Shown here in pieces: positions 1 through 45,479 of a stretch of 64,000 bases of DNA (positions are counted from its first letter, which is position 1; each line of letters opens with the position of its first letter). Made by a program: the position numbers and the translations under genes. The stretch is taken from positions 1 to 64,000 of the forward strand of contig JACCXN010000044.1 in the NCBI GenBank assembly GCA_013696965.1, read 5' to 3'. The notes beneath the pieces were generated by a model. The model ran no database searches, was not told where the DNA came from, and worked only from the letters and a program-made list of their open reading frames with translations. The stretch comes from Bacteroidota bacterium (lineage in GTDB: Bacteria; Bacteroidota; Bacteroidia; JACCXN01).

Positions 1-34
1 ACAGTGCACAAACAATAATGAATATAACATGGCG

Positions 35-50
35 TCCCGATAAATCGGGA
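35..50. repeat. Short GC-rich palindrome, possible dispersed repeat
   Basis: A 7-bp perfect inverted repeat (TCCCGAT, two-base loop, ATCGGGA) lies in otherwise very AT-rich DNA. Palindromes built on TCCCGA/TCGGGA are, from memory, common as dispersed extragenic elements in Bacteroidota genomes. I see only one copy in this window, so the repeat status is inferred. It is not followed by a T tract and so does not look like a terminator. Confidence 0.3.
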
Positions 51-212
51 TGACATTTAAAAAACAAATTATCTACATATGAAAGTAATTCGAGAAAGGA
101 TAGTAAATGGTTCTTCATTAACAATGATCTCGAACTCAATTTTCTAAGTTTTGGTCTTAAGTTTTTTAGCTTTAACAAAAATTTTATTTGATTTTTTTTT
201 GTAAATTCATAC

Positions 213-578
213 ATGAGAAAAATCACAGAAATTATACCCGTAAATAAGGTGATAGCTTTATTTACACTTGTTTTTCTTTTCTTAATTGTATTTATGTTCT
301 CTGGCAATAAGCAGAAAGAAAAGCAAAAAATACCAAATCAAATAATTTACAAAATAGAAACCTTTCAAACAGAAACAGGGTGGGGGTATAAAATTTACAA
401 TTCTGAAAAAATGCTTATTAATCAGGAAAATATTCCAACCATAACAGAATTTATATCTTTTAAATCAGAAGATGAGGCAATTTCAACGGCTAATTTAGCC
501 ATAGAGAAATTAAAAAAAGGCTTTTTCCCACCTGCAATAACACTTGAAGAACTAGATAGTTTAAAAGTATCTTATTGA
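213..578 (+). CDS. DUF4907-like single-pass membrane protein
   Basis: A 121-residue protein. Residues about 13-30 form one hydrophobic segment (VIALFTLVFLFLIVFMF), preceded by a short basic N-terminus, so it is probably an inner-membrane anchor or uncleaved signal. The remaining ~90 residues carry GWGYKIYNSEKMLINQENIP and, near the end, KLKKGFFPPAITLEEL. That layout (glycine-rich start, 'I-Q-I-P' segment, then a helix ending in K-G-x-x-P-P-x-T-x-E-E-L) matches my recollection of the Bacteroidota family DUF4907, of unknown function. It is followed by ~300 non-coding bases and then a Kelch-repeat secreted protein on the same strand. I recall such pairings in other Bacteroidota but cannot verify this here. 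The family call is from memory; the membrane segment is seen directly. Confidence 0.6.
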   Translation: MRKITEIIPVNKVIALFTLVFLFLIVFMFSGNKQKEKQKIPNQIIYKIETFQTETGWGYKIYNSEKMLINQENIPTITEFISFKSEDEAISTANLAIEKLKKGFFPPAITLEELDSLKVSY

Positions 579-3413: not shown

Positions 3414-4350
3414 TTTTGGAGAAACCTAAATTTCCTTGTAAACCACCTGAATGAATAACAAGAATTTTATCCTCGGGTTTAAAAAAACCTTTTGCTCCCA
3501 TATCATATATTCCATACATCATTTTCCCGGTATATATGTAATCCAGTGGAATTTTTGTCCTTTCTTCAAAGGCATTAATAAAAGCAAGCAATTCAGGTTT
3601 TACTTTTGCATAGCCTCCAAAGTGGTAATCTGTAATGATTTCCCAATTTTCATCCTTTTTTACACCAGAATAAGTTTTGATATAGGATTCTAAAAATTGA
3701 TTTACATTTTCTTTTAAAAAATCACCGCCTTTAAGTGCCGAAAAGCCCAGAGCTTTTGTTTTTGGTTTTTTTGAAAGAACTATTCCTGCCATGGTTGTTC
3801 CTGTTCCCATCGCACAGCAGATATAATCATAATCCTGTTCTACTTCCGATAAAATTTCCATACAGCCCTTTACTCCGTTCAAATTCGCTCCTCCTTCAGG
3901 TATCAAGTAAAAAGGTCCAAATTTTTCTTCTAATTGCTTTATAAATTCAGCATTGTTTTTTTCTCGATATGTTCCTCTGCCAATAAAATAGAGTTGCATC
4001 CCATTTTTTCGAGCCAAATCAAGAGTAGGATTAAAGTTTTTTGGCTCTTCACCTCTAATTATACCAATGGTTTTTAATCCTGACAGGCTTCCCATTGCTG
4101 CAGTTGCAGCTATATGATTTGAATAAGCACCACCAAATGTTAATATGGTTTCAAATCCTGTCTTACTGGCTTCTAAAATATTGTATTTTAATTTCCACCA
4201 TTTATTCCCTGAGACAAGAGGGTCAATCATATCATCTCTTTTTATAAATAGCTTTGAGGTAAATTTTTTATTGTAGTCAATAATTTCCTGAATTACAGGT
4301 TTAGGATTTAGCATGGTTGGTAAAAGTATTATACCATTTTGGAAATTCAA
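3403..4350 (-). CDS. 1-aminocyclopropane-1-carboxylate deaminase/D-cysteine desulfhydrase family PLP enzyme
   Basis: A 315-residue cytoplasmic fold-type II PLP enzyme. Residues 34-57 carry the family hallmark LFIKRDDMIDPLVSGNKWWK; Lys50 in SGNK is the expected Schiff-base lysine. TFGGAYSNHIAATAA (substrate- and PLP-binding loop), the phosphate-binding region CCAMGTGTTMAGIV and the C-terminal HSGGLQGNLGF loop are also present. The length fits the family (about 300-340). Members either open the cyclopropane ring of ACC to 2-oxobutanoate and ammonia or desulfhydrate D-cysteine to pyruvate, H2S and ammonia. The sequence alone does not separate these, and in a non-plant-associated bacterium the D-cysteine activity is the safer guess. 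It is divergent from the hutU-type gene that starts about 100 bases away. Confidence 0.82.
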   Translation of the reverse strand: MNFQNGIILLPTMLNPKPVIQEIIDYNKKFTSKLFIKRDDMIDPLVSGNKWWKLKYNILEASKTGFETILTFGGAYSNHIAATAAMGSLSGLKTIGIIRGEEPKNFNPTLDLARKNGMQLYFIGRGTYREKNNAEFIKQLEEKFGPFYLIPEGGANLNGVKGCMEILSEVEQDYDYICCAMGTGTTMAGIVLSKKPKTKALGFSALKGGDFLKENVNQFLESYIKTYSGVKKDENWEIITDYHFGGYAKVKPELLAFINAFEERTKIPLDYIYTGKMMYGIYDMGAKGFFKPEDKILVIHSGGLQGNLGFSKIVS

Positions 4351-4448
4351 AATGATAAGTTGGAAATCATTTGTAATTATTTCTTAATGGATGATATTTT
4401 TTGAAAAAAATGCAAAAAACAAGGCGAATTTTGTATATTTCCCCCATT

Positions 4449-6650
4449 ATGGAAGGATTTTCAAAAAAAGATAAATTCGATCCCGATGATTTTTATCATT
4501 CACCGGAAGGATATATTGTCTTTACTGAAAAATATTTATTAAAAAGAGCATATTGCTGTAAAAATGGATGCAGGCACTGTCCCTATGGCTTTACTTTAAA
4601 AAGAACAACAATGGAAACAATAAATAATATTTCTCAAAAAGAAATTTCCAAGTCAGCTTTTAACGCTGCTGTTTTAAAGGGAATTCCTGATGAACTGCCC
4701 ACATTAAAACCTTTTGATGCTTCCCTAAATCATGCCCCTAAAAGGAAGGATATTTTATCTAAGGAAGAAAAAAAACTTGCTGTAAAAAATGCGCTGAGGT
4801 ATTTTGATGAAAAACATCACCCTGTTCTTGCACCTGAGTTTGCAAAGGAATTAAACACTTACGGACGCATTTATATGTACAGGTTCAGGCCTGATTATAA
4901 AATACACGCAAGAAGTATAAATGATTATCCACATAATTCAAAACAGGCTGCAGCAATAATGCTAATGCTAAGCAACAATCTTGATTATGCAGTAGCCCAA
5001 CATCCTCATGAATTAATTACTTATGGAGGAAATGGTTCTGTTTTTCAAAACTGGGCCCAATACCTGCTTACAATGCAATATCTTGCCCAAATGACAGATG
5101 AACAAACCCTGGTTTTGTATTCAGGGCATCCCATGGGATTGTTCCCTTCAAACATTGATGCCCCAAGAGTGGTTGTAACGAATGGTATGATGATACCCAA
5201 TTATTCAAAACCAGATGATTGGGAACGTTTTAACGCATTAGGTGTTACCCAATATGGACAAATGACTGCCGGTTCTTTTATGTATATTGGGCCTCAAGGC
5301 ATTGTTCATGGAACTACCATCACAGTTCTTAATGCAGGAAGAAGAATGAAACTAGGCAATGAAGGGCTTGCAGGAAGAATTTTTGTTTCCTCTGGTTTGG
5401 GAGGAATGTCTGGAGCTCAACCCAAGGCTGGGGTTATTGCCGGAGCTGTGTCGGTAATTGCCGAGGTAAATCCCAAAGCAACTAAAGTAAGACATGAACA
5501 GGGTTGGGTAGATGAGGTTTACCAGGATTTGGACAAGCTTATTGCAAGAATTGAAATAGCGCGTAAAGCCAAAGAGGCTGTTTCCCTGTCCTATCAAGGA
5601 AATATTGTAGATTTATGGGAGAAATTTGCCGCTGAAAAAGTTAAAATAGAATTAGGCTCTGATCAAACATCACTTCATAACCCTTATTCAGGTGGATATT
5701 ATCCTGCAGGATTGTCTTATGAACAATCAAATGAAATGATGGCCAATAATCCGGAAGAATTTAAAAAACAGGTGCAAAAATCATTAATAAGGCATGTAAA
5801 TGCAGTAAAGCAAATGGTGTCAAATGGAATGTATTTCTGGGATTATGGAAATGCTTTTCTATTGGAAGCTTCCCGTGCTGGTGCCGATGTGCTAAAATCA
5901 GATGGCACTTTTATTTATCCTTCTTATGTTCAGGATATTTTAGGCCCACTCTGTTTTGATTATGGTTTTGGTCCTTTTAGGTGGGTATGTACATCTTCCG
6001 ACCCTAAAGATTTAAAAATTACAGATAAAATAGCTGAAGAGGTAATTTTAGAAATGCTTATTACAGCCCCTGATGAAATTAAACAGCAGCTTAACGACAA
6101 TTTAATTTGGATAAGAAAGGCAGAGGAAAACAAACTGGTGGTTGGTTCCCAGGCAAGAATTTTATATGCGGATAGTGAAGGCAGGATAAAAATTGCATCG
6201 GCCTTTAATAAGGCTATTAAAGATGGAAAAATTTCTGCTCCTGTTGTTCTTGGCAGGGATCATCATGATGTTTCAGGTACAGATTCACCCTACCGCGAAA
6301 CGTCCAATATTTATGATGGTTCCCAATTTACTGCCGATATGGCTATTCACAATGTTATTGGCGATTCTTTCAGGGGCGCAACATGGGTTTCTGTTCATAA
6401 TGGCGGAGGTGTTGGATGGGGAGAGGTCATCAATGGAGGTTTTGGCCTTGTTCTTGATGGGAGCGATAATGCATTTAAGAAATTACAGTCTATGCTCTTT
6501 TGGGATGTTAACAATGGCATTTCACGCAGGAGCTGGGCCAGGAATAAAGAAGCAATGTTTGCTATTAAAAGAGCCATGCAGGCTGAACCTTTATTAAAGG
6601 TTACAATACCAAGTATCCCTGATGATGAACTTTTAAAAAACTTATTTTAA
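4449..6650 (+). CDS. hutU: Urocanate hydratase with fused N-terminal DUF5522-like domain
   Basis: A 733-residue protein from the ATG at 4449. Earlier in-frame TTG 4401 and ATG 4410 exist but add only a non-conserved tail. Residues 1-54 form a complete DUF5522-like module, with FDPDDFYHSPEGYIVFTEKY and the Cys/His cluster YCCKNGCRHCPYG. From Met55 (ATG 4611) onward the protein is a full-length long-form urocanase of ~679 residues: YGGNGSVFQNW, YSGHPMGLFPS, the NAD-binding SSGLGGMSGAQPKA, FGPFRWVCTS with the conserved Cys (Cys514 here), and GRDHHDVSGTDSPYRET. The enzyme converts urocanate to imidazolone propionate in histidine degradation, using tightly bound NAD+. No other hut genes are nearby. 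The fusion junction has no stop codon or frameshift; it may be a real fusion or two genes that lost a stop. Confidence 0.9.
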   Translation: MEGFSKKDKFDPDDFYHSPEGYIVFTEKYLLKRAYCCKNGCRHCPYGFTLKRTTMETINNISQKEISKSAFNAAVLKGIPDELPTLKPFDASLNHAPKRKDILSKEEKKLAVKNALRYFDEKHHPVLAPEFAKELNTYGRIYMYRFRPDYKIHARSINDYPHNSKQAAAIMLMLSNNLDYAVAQHPHELITYGGNGSVFQNWAQYLLTMQYLAQMTDEQTLVLYSGHPMGLFPSNIDAPRVVVTNGMMIPNYSKPDDWERFNALGVTQYGQMTAGSFMYIGPQGIVHGTTITVLNAGRRMKLGNEGLAGRIFVSSGLGGMSGAQPKAGVIAGAVSVIAEVNPKATKVRHEQGWVDEVYQDLDKLIARIEIARKAKEAVSLSYQGNIVDLWEKFAAEKVKIELGSDQTSLHNPYSGGYYPAGLSYEQSNEMMANNPEEFKKQVQKSLIRHVNAVKQMVSNGMYFWDYGNAFLLEASRAGADVLKSDGTFIYPSYVQDILGPLCFDYGFGPFRWVCTSSDPKDLKITDKIAEEVILEMLITAPDEIKQQLNDNLIWIRKAEENKLVVGSQARILYADSEGRIKIASAFNKAIKDGKISAPVVLGRDHHDVSGTDSPYRETSNIYDGSQFTADMAIHNVIGDSFRGATWVSVHNGGGVGWGEVINGGFGLVLDGSDNAFKKLQSMLFWDVNNGISRRSWARNKEAMFAIKRAMQAEPLLKVTIPSIPDDELLKNLF

Positions 6651-6662
6651 AAAATTAAAAAC

Positions 6663-7079
6663 ATGATTTTTTATAAACCCTTCCGAATTACTCTAGCCAT
6701 TTTAGCTGGTCTTTTATTCCTAACTTCATGTGAACCTGAAGGCGAGAATGTGAATTTTACAGCCGAAGAAATGGTTGGTACTTATAACTGTGCTGAAAAA
6801 AGCCAGGTTTACTCATCTTCAAATTATGAGGTGATAGTATCAAAATCAGCAGCATCTTCTAGTCAAATTACTGTAGAAAATTTTTATCAATTAGGAATAA
6901 GTGCTTCTGTTAAAGTAAACATTAATGGCAGTGACCTTATTATTCCTAAGCAAGTTGTAAACAATATTACTATTTCAGGTGATGGGGTAATAATTAGCAA
7001 AAGCAGAATGAACCTTAATTACACTGCAGATGATGGTGGAGGTGTTGTTGATGTGGTAAGTGGAGGTTTGTCAAAGTAA
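6663..7079 (+). CDS. Small hypothetical lipoprotein
   Basis: A 138-residue protein with a lipoprotein signal: basic and aromatic N-terminus, hydrophobic core LAILAGLLFLTS and Cys23 as the lipidation site (L-T-S-C). The mature part begins EPEGENVNFTAEEMVGTYNC and is rich in Ser, Val and Asn with alternating hydrophobic residues, suggesting a small beta-sandwich or barrel, like many lipocalin-sized Bacteroidota lipoproteins. No specific family recognised. It starts 12 bases after the stop of the urocanate hydratase gene, so it is probably co-transcribed, but I see no functional link. Confidence 0.7.
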   Translation: MIFYKPFRITLAILAGLLFLTSCEPEGENVNFTAEEMVGTYNCAEKSQVYSSSNYEVIVSKSAASSSQITVENFYQLGISASVKVNINGSDLIIPKQVVNNITISGDGVIISKSRMNLNYTADDGGGVVDVVSGGLSK

Positions 7080-7155
7080 AATTTATTTGCCATCTGTTCT
7101 TTTTTCTTTAGAATCAATTTGCTCAATATTTCATTTTAAAAACCTTTAATTATTT

Positions 7156-9015
7156 ATGCGTAAAATTATTTTGTTTGGAATTGCTGTCGTGTTATTCCTT
7201 CCTGTTATTGGACAATATAGAGCAAAAAAAGAGGCAAATGCAAATGACGCCAGAGACAATTTTTCCAAGGGGAATTTTAAAGGATCACTTATTGAATATA
7301 CGGAATTGTTGAAGTCAGATCCTAAAAACACCACTTTTCATTATAGAACCGCCTTGTGTTATTTAAATTTAAATACCGATAAATCAAAAGCAATTACACA
7401 TCTTGAATTTGTTATTAAACAAGCAGGATATGATAAACAAGCTCTGCTTGAACTTGGCAAAGCATACCATTATGCTTATAGATTTGACGAGGCTATTGAG
7501 ATTTTAAAAAGATATAAAGAGGAACTTGGAAAAAAAGGTGCAGCAATCATAGAAGCAGATAAATTAATTGCCTATTGTTTTAATGCAAAAGAACTAATTA
7601 AATTCCCACAAAATGTTTCCTTTGAAAATTTGGGTAAAGAAATAAACACAGAATTTCCCGACTATTATCCTTTTGTTTCTAGTGATGAAAACGATTTGAT
7701 TTTTACATCAAGACGCAAAGGAAATATTGGAGGGTTTGAAACTATTGACGGATACTTTACCTCTGATATTTATATTTCGAAAGAAAAAAATGGTAACTGG
7801 TCCAAAGCCAAGAATATGGGGGCAAATGTAAATTCAGACGGAGATGATGAAGCAGTTGGAATTGCTGATGAGGGTAAATATTTATTTATTTACTCAGAAA
7901 ATGCTTTTGAATATGGAGACATCCTGGCTTCACTAAAAAAAGGAAAAAGCTATCAAAGAAGGGAATTGTTGGATCAGAATATAAATACAAATGCACTTGA
8001 GGTTGCCGGATCTATTTCCCCAGATGGAAATATACTTTTGTTTTCCAGTGATAAAGATGGTGGACAAGGAGAGTTAGATATTTTTATGTCAAGAAAATTG
8101 CCTACCGGAAATTGGGGCGTGGCAACAAATCTGTCAAACCTGAACAGCAAATACAATGAAGATTTTCCTATGTTCTCCAGCGATGGTAAAGTAATTTATT
8201 TTTGTTCCCAAGGTCACAATAGCATGGGAGGGTTTGATCTTTTTAAATCAAACTGGGATGAACAAATACAAGAATGGATGAATCCTGTTAATTTAGGTTT
8301 TCCTATAAATACCCCCGAAGATAATATGACCATTTCATTTGCTAGGACAGGTACACATGCTTATATTTCTGCTTACCGCGAAGATAGTTTTGGAGACCTG
8401 GATATTTACAAGGTGAGCTTTAATGCTGCCGAACCTGTTGTTACAACAATAAAAGGGACAATAAAAGCCGAAATGATTATTGACGACAAAAAGTATAAAA
8501 ATTTTCATGTGTATAAAAAAGATAACATTTTAAAAGACTTTCCAGATGAATACCATCCACCAAAGGAAAGCTTATGGAAATTTGTAGAAACAAAAAAAAT
8601 GGAGGAAAAAAAAGGTTTTATATTCAAAACCATTTTGATTTTTGAAAAAAACGGAGTTGAACTTACTGTAGGTCCTGAGAAAATTCCAACCGATCCGGCT
8701 TTTAAGTTTAAAGATATTAAGAATATACTGGTTAAAATTCCTGGTTATGTTCCCTCCCCTGAGTTAATACCTACAATAGAAACAGAAATAGTTGGGGATG
8801 CATTTATTACAATTACAAATAAAAAAACGAATGAAGTTTTTGGAACTTACCTTAGTCAATCTTCAGGAAAATTTATAATTATAGCACCACCTGCAATTTA
8901 TACTATTCAAGTTGAGGCCAAAGGTTATAATTTATTTAAGGATGATTTAATAATTTTCGATAAAGCATCATTTATATCTGAATTGCAAAAAGATATTATT
9001 TTGAAGAAGGAATAA
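7156..9015 (+). CDS. Exported TPR and PD40 beta-propeller protein lacking an OmpA domain
   Basis: A 619-residue exported protein with a signal peptide (residues 1-19, ending VIGQ). Residues about 30-150 are TPR-like helical repeats (FSKGNFKGSLIEYTELLKSD, ALLELGKAYHYAYRFDEAIE). Residues about 165-420 hold PD40/WD40-like propeller blades with the recurring 'S-x-D-x-x-x-I-Y/F-F-x-S' pattern (YYPFVSSDENDLIFTSRRKG, SISPDGNILLFSSDKDGGQG, FPMFSSDGKVIYFCSQGHNS). The last part, ending APPAIYTIQVEAKGYNLFKD, resembles a carboxypeptidase-regulatory beta domain. TPR-PD40-regulatory domain is the order of the T9SS protein PorE and relatives, but the C-terminal peptidoglycan-binding OmpA domain is missing. 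It is probably periplasmic; a T9SS role is only a possibility. Confidence 0.78.
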   Translation: MRKIILFGIAVVLFLPVIGQYRAKKEANANDARDNFSKGNFKGSLIEYTELLKSDPKNTTFHYRTALCYLNLNTDKSKAITHLEFVIKQAGYDKQALLELGKAYHYAYRFDEAIEILKRYKEELGKKGAAIIEADKLIAYCFNAKELIKFPQNVSFENLGKEINTEFPDYYPFVSSDENDLIFTSRRKGNIGGFETIDGYFTSDIYISKEKNGNWSKAKNMGANVNSDGDDEAVGIADEGKYLFIYSENAFEYGDILASLKKGKSYQRRELLDQNINTNALEVAGSISPDGNILLFSSDKDGGQGELDIFMSRKLPTGNWGVATNLSNLNSKYNEDFPMFSSDGKVIYFCSQGHNSMGGFDLFKSNWDEQIQEWMNPVNLGFPINTPEDNMTISFARTGTHAYISAYREDSFGDLDIYKVSFNAAEPVVTTIKGTIKAEMIIDDKKYKNFHVYKKDNILKDFPDEYHPPKESLWKFVETKKMEEKKGFIFKTILIFEKNGVELTVGPEKIPTDPAFKFKDIKNILVKIPGYVPSPELIPTIETEIVGDAFITITNKKTNEVFGTYLSQSSGKFIIIAPPAIYTIQVEAKGYNLFKDDLIIFDKASFISELQKDIILKKE

Positions 9016-42788: not shown

Positions 42789-45479
42789 ATGAAACAATTT
42801 ACAATTCTAAAAAAATTAATATCCTTTTTTGGAGTGCTTTTCTTTATTTTCAGTCCTTCATTGGCTAGTGCTCAGGGCTTTTGCGGAACTAATCAAGCTA
42901 TGCAAGATTTGTATGAAAAATATCCTGGTTTAAAAGAAGAACAAAAAAAATTAGTAGAAAGCAGTAAGCAATTTGTAATTGAAAATAATGGTCGTTCACG
43001 TTCTGTTGTTTATACAATTCCTGTTGTATTTCATATATTGCATGAATACGGGTCTGAAAATCTGCATGATACTATAATTAAGGCTCAGATTGCAAGGTTA
43101 AATAAGGATTTCAGAAAGTTAAATGAAGATACAGCTAATGTTGTTCCCGAATTTAAAGGACTGATTGCTGATTCAAGAGTTGAATTTAAACTAGCAACCA
43201 AGGATTATCAAGGTAACTGTACCAATGGTATAGAACGTATATTTACACATGAAACCCAAATTGGAGATGACTTTTCCAAACTGAATCCCTGGCCAAGAGA
43301 AAAATATTTAAATATTTGGGTGTCGGCAAATATTAGCAGACCAGGAGTTGCCGGTTATGCCACTTTTCCCTCAGGTGCTGTAGGTGGATATATGTATTTT
43401 CTTGATGGAATAATGGTAACCAAAGATTATGTAGGAGAATCTCATCGTGTACTTACTCATGAGGTAGGACATTATCTTGGACTATCGCATCCATGGGGAG
43501 ATGGAGAAATAGGTACAGGTTGCGGAAATGATGGTATTTTAGATACTCCTCCTACCAAAGGTTGGAGTTTTTGTTCGTTGAATGATGCCACTAGTTGTCC
43601 TGCTGTTAATATTGCCAAGGCTTATTCTTTTTCTAGTGTTACAACCGGTTCTGGAGTAACCGATCCAACTCCTGTTGTTGCTGATAGCGGTATTGTTTTC
43701 AGTAGCTTTTCAGCTTCTGGTGTATCCAATAATTCATTTGTTGATACAAGTTTTTCTTTTACAAACTGGGAAACAGGATCAACTGATGGAGAAACAGACT
43801 ATAACTTATTAACAGGAAGTTTAAATACATCAAAATACTATGAAATAACTATAACTCCTAAGTTAGGTTACAATATGAGTATTTCAAAAATTGATTTTAA
43901 TTTTTATCGTACTCAAACAGGAGTAAGAACTTTTGCAGTGCGTTCAAGTGTTGATAATTTTGCCGATAATCTTGCTGCGTCAGCCGATACAAGTAAATAT
44001 ACTATTGTTTCACCAAATATATTTTTCATTAAAAATGACACCTCTTATATGGATAAGAGCACGATAAACCTTGACGGGGTTACAAATTATGTAAAAAGAA
44101 CTTCCCCAATTAAGTTTCGGTTTTATGGATGGAATGCTGAAGATGTTTTGGGAACTTTTGGTATTGATAATGTTACTATAACTTTAGGAAACGGAAAAGT
44201 AGAAAACATCCAAAACTACATGGAATATGCTTACTGCTCAAAAATGTTTACTATTGGACAGGCTGAGGCAATGGAAGCTACTTTGAACAATAGTACAGCA
44301 AGCAGAGACAATTTATCCAAAGCAACTAATCTTGCTCAAACTGGTACTGATGTTACAACAATGCCTGTGTGTATTCCTGTTGCCGATTTTAACGTAAGCA
44401 ATAAATTTATTTGCGCAGGATCTGCAATTACTTTTAATAATGCAACATGGAGAGCAGAGGGAACTTATTCCTGGACATTTACCGATGGAACTCCTGCTAC
44501 TTCAACCGAAGCAAATCCAACAGTTACTTTTAACACACATGGCTGGAAAACAGTTTCCCTTACTGCCACAAACGCAGCAGGTTCTCATACAACAACAATG
44601 GAAAATTTCATATATGTATCAGGAGCATGGACTGAATTTCAGGGTACACATGTAGATAATTTTCAATCAGAAAATTGGTGGCTAGTTGACAATATTGGAA
44701 AAGATCAGGTGCAATGGGAGTTAGTAAACATTGGTGTTTCAGGTGCTAGCAAAGCATACGGACTTAGAAATGCGATTGCAAACGCTCCTCAGTTTGGATA
44801 TTATGAAAGAGTAGGTGGAAAAAGAGATGCTCTTATTTCCCCTTCTTATGATCTTTCTCTTATGACAAGCGGAAATCTATCTTTTACTTATTCTGCTGCA
44901 ACAAGGTCGCCATCTGCTGCTGGAATTACAGAAAGACTCGTTGTTTATTTTTCAACAGATTGTGGGAAAACATGGGGTGCTCCTAGAAGAACCATTACAG
45001 GTGTAGAATTAATTAGTGCGGGTGTGGTTGATGGGCCTTATGTTCCAACACAGGCCAACCAATGGAGAACAGCAACGGTAAGTATTCCTGCATTTTTTCA
45101 TCAAGGTAATGTTAGGTTTAAATTTGAATATACTGCAAGTGATGGTTCAAATAATATATACATAAATAATTTTACAATTGATGGTGTAGTTGGTATTGAA
45201 GAAAAAATGAAAAATGAATATTTTTCTTTGAACATTTTCCCAAATCCTTCAAGAGATGATCAGAATTTAAATGTTTCCTATTTAAGCAAAGGAAATGAGG
45301 TTAAATTATCTATTACTGATTTAGTTGGAAAGCTTGTTTATTCAATAAATGAAAATAATGGACCTGGTGAAAATACAACCATCGTTAATATGTCAGAAAC
45401 GAATATGAAAGCGGGTGTTTATTTTTTAAATATTTCTGATGGAGTTTACAACCAAACAAAGAAGGTTGTGGTTTATTAA
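42789..45479 (+). CDS. Secreted M43 (cytophagalysin-like) metalloprotease with inserted domain, PKD and T9SS sorting domain
   Basis: An 896-residue secreted zinc protease. Signal peptide 1-29 (ends LASAQ); then a pro/N-terminal region with VVFHILHEYGSEN; then the M43 site HEVGHYLGLSH at residues 224-234 and DTPPTKGWSFCS. The Met-turn NIQNYMEYAYCSKMFTIGQ appears only at ~475-493. Residues ~272-472 are an inserted beta-sandwich (SYFSFSSVT-like start; YYEITITPKLGYNMSISKI; FGIDNVTITLG). After the catalytic domain come a PKD domain (YSWTFTDGTPATSTEANPTV) and a jelly-roll/concanavalin-like domain with STDCGKTWG, and a C-terminal domain opening NIFPNPSRDDQNLNVS. Cargo of the T9SS; substrates unknown. 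Confidence 0.9.
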   Translation: MKQFTILKKLISFFGVLFFIFSPSLASAQGFCGTNQAMQDLYEKYPGLKEEQKKLVESSKQFVIENNGRSRSVVYTIPVVFHILHEYGSENLHDTIIKAQIARLNKDFRKLNEDTANVVPEFKGLIADSRVEFKLATKDYQGNCTNGIERIFTHETQIGDDFSKLNPWPREKYLNIWVSANISRPGVAGYATFPSGAVGGYMYFLDGIMVTKDYVGESHRVLTHEVGHYLGLSHPWGDGEIGTGCGNDGILDTPPTKGWSFCSLNDATSCPAVNIAKAYSFSSVTTGSGVTDPTPVVADSGIVFSSFSASGVSNNSFVDTSFSFTNWETGSTDGETDYNLLTGSLNTSKYYEITITPKLGYNMSISKIDFNFYRTQTGVRTFAVRSSVDNFADNLAASADTSKYTIVSPNIFFIKNDTSYMDKSTINLDGVTNYVKRTSPIKFRFYGWNAEDVLGTFGIDNVTITLGNGKVENIQNYMEYAYCSKMFTIGQAEAMEATLNNSTASRDNLSKATNLAQTGTDVTTMPVCIPVADFNVSNKFICAGSAITFNNATWRAEGTYSWTFTDGTPATSTEANPTVTFNTHGWKTVSLTATNAAGSHTTTMENFIYVSGAWTEFQGTHVDNFQSENWWLVDNIGKDQVQWELVNIGVSGASKAYGLRNAIANAPQFGYYERVGGKRDALISPSYDLSLMTSGNLSFTYSAATRSPSAAGITERLVVYFSTDCGKTWGAPRRTITGVELISAGVVDGPYVPTQANQWRTATVSIPAFFHQGNVRFKFEYTASDGSNNIYINNFTIDGVVGIEEKMKNEYFSLNIFPNPSRDDQNLNVSYLSKGNEVKLSITDLVGKLVYSINENNGPGENTTIVNMSETNMKAGVYFLNISDGVYNQTKKVVVY

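Follow-up and report, generated by a model that had tools for sequence, protein, structure and literature searches.

Gene and domain organization

On the forward strand of the window (the whole 64,000-nucleotide stretch of contig JACCXN010000044.1 analysed here), one open reading frame encodes a protein that, by sequence and structural model, is a protease of family M43 (the pappalysins), presumably zinc-dependent, carrying an additional domain inside its catalytic core. The features of this gene are:

42789..45479, + strand: open reading frame of 896 amino acids; M43 (pappalysin-type) metalloprotease with inserted domain, PKD domain and T9SS tail
42789..42872, + strand: probable signal peptide, residues 1-28, from a reading of the sequence only
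42882..42887, + strand: Cys32-Gly33, candidate Cys-Gly cysteine-switch motif of the prosegment, located in the sequence (motif known from mirolysin; PMC6949598, available part)
43008..43598, + strand: first part of the M43 catalytic domain, residues 74-270 (Pfam, PDB sequence match and structural alignment)
43458..43490, + strand: zinc motif HEVGHYLGLSH, residues 224-234 (sequence)
43521..43523, + strand: Cys245, expected partner of Cys270 by analogy with Cys243-Cys271 of mirolysin (sequence)
43572..43574, + strand: Cys262, expected partner of Cys483 (sequence)
43596..43598, + strand: Cys270, the final protease residue ahead of the insert (sequence comparison)
43599..44198, + strand: inserted jelly-roll domain, residues 271-470 (comparison with homologues and predicted structure)
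44214..44237, + strand: Met-turn NYMEYAYC, residues 476-483, with Cys483 at 44235-44237 (sequence)
44238..44363, + strand: end of the catalytic domain, C-terminal helices, residues 484-525 (predicted structure)
44376..44600, + strand: PKD domain PF18911, residues 530-604 (Pfam)
44850..45176, + strand: C-terminal beta region, residues 688-796 (weak Reelin_subrepeat-B match, 24.6 bits, under the cut-off of 27)
45234..45473, + strand: T9SS type A sorting tail, residues 816-895 (PF18962, TIGR04183)

The Pfam profile Peptidase_M43 (PF05572) matched two stretches of the protein (60.2 bits against a cut-off of 23), with the best match at residues 162-273; the extended motif HExxHxxGxxH is present at residues 224-234, as is the Tyr two positions after the Met of the Met-turn (NYMEY, residues 476-480). 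In a search of the protein's own genome, the M43 profile matched this reading frame twice (profile positions 5-123, above the cut-off, and 118-151, which narrowly missed it with 22 bits) and matched seven other M43 genes once each, all with 42-47 residues between zinc motif and Met-turn. Three M43 genes of normal spacing stand in tandem on contig C91 of the same genome (approximately 153600-160200). By sequence, the best relatives in the PDB were mirolysin and ulilysin, with a top alignment spanning residues 32-260 and, in three alignments, a second, individually non-significant piece near the Met-turn (residues 474-509 or 467-503). The NCBIfam model TIGR03952 (metzin_BF0631) scored far below its curated cut-off (42.2 versus 208.1 bits), and a Pfam scan of the protein found no LNR family at E ≤ 1. 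Both models of the sorting tail exceeded their cut-offs (PF18962, 42.5 versus 27 bits; TIGR04183, 40.5 versus 23 bits), from which we infer that the protease is probably secreted in a T9SS-dependent manner.

Two spacing classes among M43 proteases

A preliminary description of this DNA had placed the end of HExxHxxGxxH at residue 234 and the Met-turn at residues 476-483, and had proposed that the extra residues between them (272-472) are a separate domain and not a spacing shared by all M43 homologues. The positions were borne out, with 241 residues separating the two motifs, and so was the proposal. Among 115 distinct M43 genes from the fetched loci (reading frames of at least 200 amino acids with an intact zinc motif), the 77 without an insert have 42-68 residues in this interval (76 of them 42-63) and 34 with an insert have 241-741, with none between the classes and four genes in which the Met-turn was unreadable by pattern; because the loci were gathered by similarity searches with the protein and its insert, the comparison establishes the two classes and not their frequency. 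The short loop that is usual for M43 (42-68 residues), although not a formal defining feature of the family, is absent here.

Comparison with relatives lacking the insert puts its limits at approximately residues 271-470, within a few residues of those first proposed. The insert starts directly after the Cys270-like residue in all 36 insert-bearing proteins, and ends just ahead of (V/I)EN.(Q/E)NYM(E/D)Y or a similar motif (VENIQNYMEY in this protein) in all 34 in which the end is readable; two others (L088 and L116) stop ahead of the Met-turn, which leaves the end of their inserts unreadable.

An AlphaFold2 model of residues 29-525, built with 39 sequences, has a closed M43 fold (pLDDT 90.6, pTM 0.85). 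It aligned to proulilysin (8cdb) with a Z score of 33.5 and an r.m.s.d. of 2.3 over 277 of 306 residues, spanning positions 1..484 of the model and leaving out the insert, and to PAPP-A and PAPP-A2 entries with Z scores of 17.8-19.4. Modelled alone, the insert folds with high confidence (pLDDT 92.1, pTM 0.90), its first strand occupying residues 3-9 and its last residues 187-199 of 200. That the extra residues form part of the M43 fold is ruled out by the predicted structure and by the 8cdb alignment that omits them; the separate beta domain foreseen in the preliminary description is thus what the models predict, and a domain inserted in the M43 core is a confirmed observation.

An unnamed jelly-roll family

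The structural neighbours of the insert in VIA-align (Z 8-9.4) were CBM15, a mannanase CBM, CBM27, BcsB, CBM22, CBM4 and the cleaved adhesins of Kgp. A Foldseek search with the insert model gave no match at E ≤ 0.001, and because VIA-align re-examines Foldseek hits only, the absence of a family from its results proves nothing, for the insert and for the protease model alike. The best Z score for a CBM-like fold (9.4) is equalled by other jelly-rolls, and the resemblance may reflect no more than a widespread arrangement. We regard the insert, on the model, as a jelly-roll of an ordinary type; Z scores up to 9.4 do not imply carbohydrate binding. CBM15, CBM27, CBM4/22, the Kgp cleaved-adhesin domains and MAM resemble the insert in this arrangement (Z 8-9.4), but the insert has no credible match to a sequence family. 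Pfam and NCBIfam contained no credible family for the approximately 200 residues (best E 0.0094, for one of 31 domain members) and no CBM family for any of the 31 members at E ≤ 0.1, the PDB searched by sequence yielded no credible relative (best E 0.85), and no donor copy was found in the protein's own genome, where an insert-profile search returned this copy only.

The domain occurs in 72 distinct reading frames, 36 with it inside an M43 protease and 36 without an M43 part (25 of the latter 308-350 amino acids long). Those stand-alone proteins whose ends were read have termini that resemble signal peptides and sorting tails, and in the two scanned whole the Pfam T9SS tail is above its cut-off. 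These figures fit the early remark that domains of this type are often seen alone in T9SS proteins, and indicate that the domain has a use outside the protease. The insert profile derives from nine inserted copies, which leaves remote stand-alone relatives under-sampled in these counts.

In a sample of the class, 90 of 395 genomes had an insert-profile match at E ≤ 0.001 and at least 24 of 395 carry inserted M43 genes, a lower bound given that up to eight candidates per genome were scored; every listed place at E ≤ 1e-15 was classified except one at a contig edge (G121). Duplicates were merged (L010 is the copy of G022, and the G223 copy was joined to L015). With a threshold of E ≤ 1e-15, a phylum-wide search matched five genomes out of 395, this genome included, and among the loci examined gave no further inserted M43 case.

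The neighbours of the stand-alone genes are mainly housekeeping, regulatory or thioredoxin-like and give no hint of function. In f21 genomes, a stand-alone gene lies between the genes for peptidyl-tRNA hydrolase and uvrC (L106 and L108, by Pfam), and four loci (L097, L101, L104 and L105) show gene lengths similar to this neighbourhood. At four f41 loci (L113, L117, L119 and L121), the stand-alone gene adjoins a double thioredoxin-like gene.

Origin, possible loss and growth of the insertion

In a tree of 69 domains (pieces shorter than 150 amino acids, namely L020, L021 and two reading frames of L126, were left out), all 35 inserted copies fall on one side of a single branch (support 99/84; recovered in 99% of 200 bootstrap trees), which shows that the inserted copies share a common ancestry. 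The tree of 89 M43 N-terminal halves (35 of the 36 insert proteins, the truncated L021 being left out, and 54 proteins without an insert after score and length limits) requires 10 changes of the insert label, four of them forced by well-supported branches, and a single clade of insert-bearing N-terminal halves was rejected (AU test, P = 0.000573). A quick search of the C-terminal halves without bootstrapping (73 rows, 33 with an insert) gave seven changes, three forced. The bootstraps of the N-half and domain trees had not settled. The most parsimonious account is a single capture, after which the loop was repeatedly lost or replaced; it is also possible that the domain spread among M43 genes by recombination.

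Both states can be viewed at close range in G245 (L129), in which one of two adjacent paralogous M43 genes (3443-6166 and 6261-8351) has the insert and the other does not. The two are 61% identical before the slot and 70% after it, and the loop of the gene without the insert is 51% identical to that of its neighbour, within the 41-60% of other relatives without an insert; this state is as compatible with local gene conversion as with deletion.

The slot has also grown. One M43 gene (L109:3388-6837) has the domain twice in tandem. In L020 and L021, the domain itself breaks off near profile position 130 and continues about 480 residues further on, Ig-like repeats (identified by eye) filling the gap. 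The resulting reading frames are nested at three levels, protease, jelly-roll and array (the repeats again by eye):

L020:957-5216: nested M43 reading frame of 1420 amino acids
L021:1-3828: nested M43 reading frame

The closely similar L020 and L021 genes are recorded under Chryseobacterium gleum and Candidatus Planktophila lacus, and one or both of these metagenome-assembled genomes are probably mis-binned or mislabelled. In L115 and L116, the last strand alone is separated from the rest of the domain and seems to follow some 450 residues downstream, a weak match (conditional E 0.015 and 0.0066, respectively) in the expected place, just before the Met-turn in L115 and just before the contig end in L116; by eye, the intervening residues include a PKD-like stretch. 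In L088 (reading frame from 649), an in-frame TGA directly follows the inserted domain and the Met-turn continues in the same frame, possibly through an assembly error, a broken gene or readthrough.

Whether the slot is a general hotspot for unrelated domains was considered with 18 M43 genes at 12 further loci, taken from the M43 places listed and chosen mostly for long frames. None contained another insert: 16 have 45-63 residues by pattern and two have NYMSY inside 95 residues of sequence, so that all 18 are short-looped and the hotspot is unsupported among these places; rare inserts of other kinds may occur in the slot. One reading frame of normal spacing (L142 in G122, 1153 amino acids) has its zinc motif at residue 690 and accordingly a long N-terminal extension.

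Constraint on the insert and the surrounding enzyme

Pairwise comparisons indicate that the insert is constrained, less so than the enzyme around it. Its dN/dS ratio was below 1 in eight of nine pairs and undefined in one, ranging from approximately 0.08 to 0.64; it exceeded that of the catalytic part in all seven pairs with both ratios defined, and mean pairwise identity among 31 proteins was lower for the insert (43%) than for the catalytic part (50%), the two being correlated (rho 0.37). The sole unsaturated pair is the close pair L012/L013, with an insert ratio of about 0.08 (dN and dS, respectively: catalytic 0.0035/0.108, insert 0.0086/0.105, C-terminal part 0.0088/0.059); for the other pairs, including two f9 pairs with insert ratios of 0.61 and 0.64, dS was 0.6 to 4.5 or undefined, at or near saturation, which makes the ratios rough. 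Four residues, W327, R374, R385 and E451, do not vary among 35 inserted copies.

Mirolysin has the disulfides Cys243-Cys271 and Cys262-Cys291 (PMC6949598, in the part of the paper available), and the four corresponding cysteines, Cys245, Cys262, Cys270 and Cys483, are present in this protein. By analogy, Cys245-Cys270 and Cys262-Cys483 pairs are expected, the second of which would span the insertion slot. Among the 34 readable insert proteins, 32 have both the Cys262-like and the Cys483-like residue, two (L011 and L091) have neither and none has one alone, a pattern of joint retention and loss that is consistent with a functional disulfide bridging the insert. Together with dN/dS ratios below 1, it argues for a working enzyme.

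Possible roles of the inserted domain

For the role of the insert, PAPP-A offers a comparison. According to the available part of the PAPP-A study, a 63-residue loop between zinc motif and Met-turn (the ZnM loop) extends the cleft on its lower side, cleavage of IGFBP-4 depends on several residues of this loop, and a C612-C643 disulfide may hold a specificity residue in position (PMC9579167). Because the insert lies in the loop that serves cleavage in PAPP-A, we propose that it could be an exosite beside the active-site cleft, a docking arm for substrates comparable to the ZnM loop, a reading that we put slightly above an even chance. Under this proposal, the complete, independently folding jelly-roll that interrupts the ZnM loop would capture a polymer, a glycan or a protein on the cell surface and thereby bring bound substrate to the cleft. 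The repeated absence of the domain in relatives indicates that the protease can manage without it.

That same absence, with the lower constraint on the domain than on the catalytic part and a loop that takes 200 to approximately 700 extra residues (tandem and nested arrays included), would also be expected if the slot were a tolerant surface loop whose contents are passive spacer or baggage with no catalytic role. We consider this rather unlikely, given the dN/dS ratios of the insert, its invariant Trp, Arg and Glu residues and the finding of a single domain family in the slot, the further M43 genes examined having the usual loop. A regulatory role, in which a ligand on the jelly-roll would shift the ZnM loop and, via Cys262-Cys483, the segment after the Met-turn as an on/off switch, would make sense of a slot lying between expected core disulfides and of two cysteines that are retained or lost jointly; PAPP-A lacking C612-C643 (taken as equivalent by position) autolyses at other sites, according to the available text (PMC9579167). 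However, relatives without the insert have the same loop cysteines in their sequences and the prosegment Cys-Gly motif already supplies a latency mechanism, which makes such a switch decidedly improbable. More speculative still, and a long shot in our estimation, is a ligand-gated metzincin, in which a CBM-like domain captured once in the ZnM loop would sense a surface polymer and relay the signal, through a loop stapled by disulfides, to the Met-turn and S1' region, the slot having since become a site of domain accretion (tandem copies, nested beta arrays).

The domain might instead retain the protease at the cell surface or extracellular matrix without presenting substrate, as its carbohydrate-binding type of jelly-roll and the short proteins in which its family otherwise often occurs, with a T9SS tail in the two scanned, would allow; but a chain end would serve equally for anchoring, a PKD domain and others are already there, and a location within the core points to a requirement for proximity to the cleft, so that we find this reading very unlikely. 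A fusion of two genes by chimeric assembly or frameshift, a concern in that many relatives are, by their record titles, from metagenome-assembled genomes, has negligible probability, since the gene is a single unbroken reading frame and chimeric assembly is refuted by independent copies, 36 distinct reading frames from many genomes sharing the junction.

Relation to known proteases and significance

Mirolysin, ulilysin and cytophagalysin share with this protein the zinc motif, the Met-turn, the prosegment cysteine, the four loop cysteines and the overall fold, but the aligned structures have no domain in the ZnM loop, and the accessible part of a study of cytophagalysin, a bacterial pappalysin, describes no such domain (PMC11674741). 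As far as the available texts describe them, PAPP-A and PAPP-A2 resemble this protein in pappalysin fold, in a 63-residue ZnM loop that contributes to cleavage and in modules inserted in the catalytic domain; these modules, however, are small LNRs positioned over the cleft and, judging from residue numbers, N-terminal to the zinc motif, whereas here a jelly-roll of about 200 residues follows the zinc motif inside the ZnM loop. MMP-9 belongs to a different metzincin family and has a different inserted domain, fibronectin-like, which lies before the zinc motif, as in MMP-2; IgAse belongs to family M64. The MMP-9 insert serves gelatin binding (PMC2886829, available portion), and IgAse, in the portion of its description available, likewise has a characteristic stretch (S553-E605) running from its third zinc ligand towards the Met-turn, but one of 53 residues without a separate domain (PMC12237041). 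Among the open-access papers listed, judged by title and opening of the abstract or by the text examined, and with subscription papers outside the scope of the search, we found no description of a domain in the ZnM-loop slot of any M43 enzyme.

Together, these results establish a real and well-defined variant of M43 carrying an unnamed inserted domain family, with a role that is inferred. The family, at about 200 amino acids and without a credible match in Pfam or NCBIfam, could be curated. The coexistence of relatives with and without the domain, in G245 as neighbouring genes, makes the effect of an inserted exosite testable by domain removal, and the 241-741 residues between third zinc ligand and Met-turn indicate how far the metzincin scaffold tolerates interruption.
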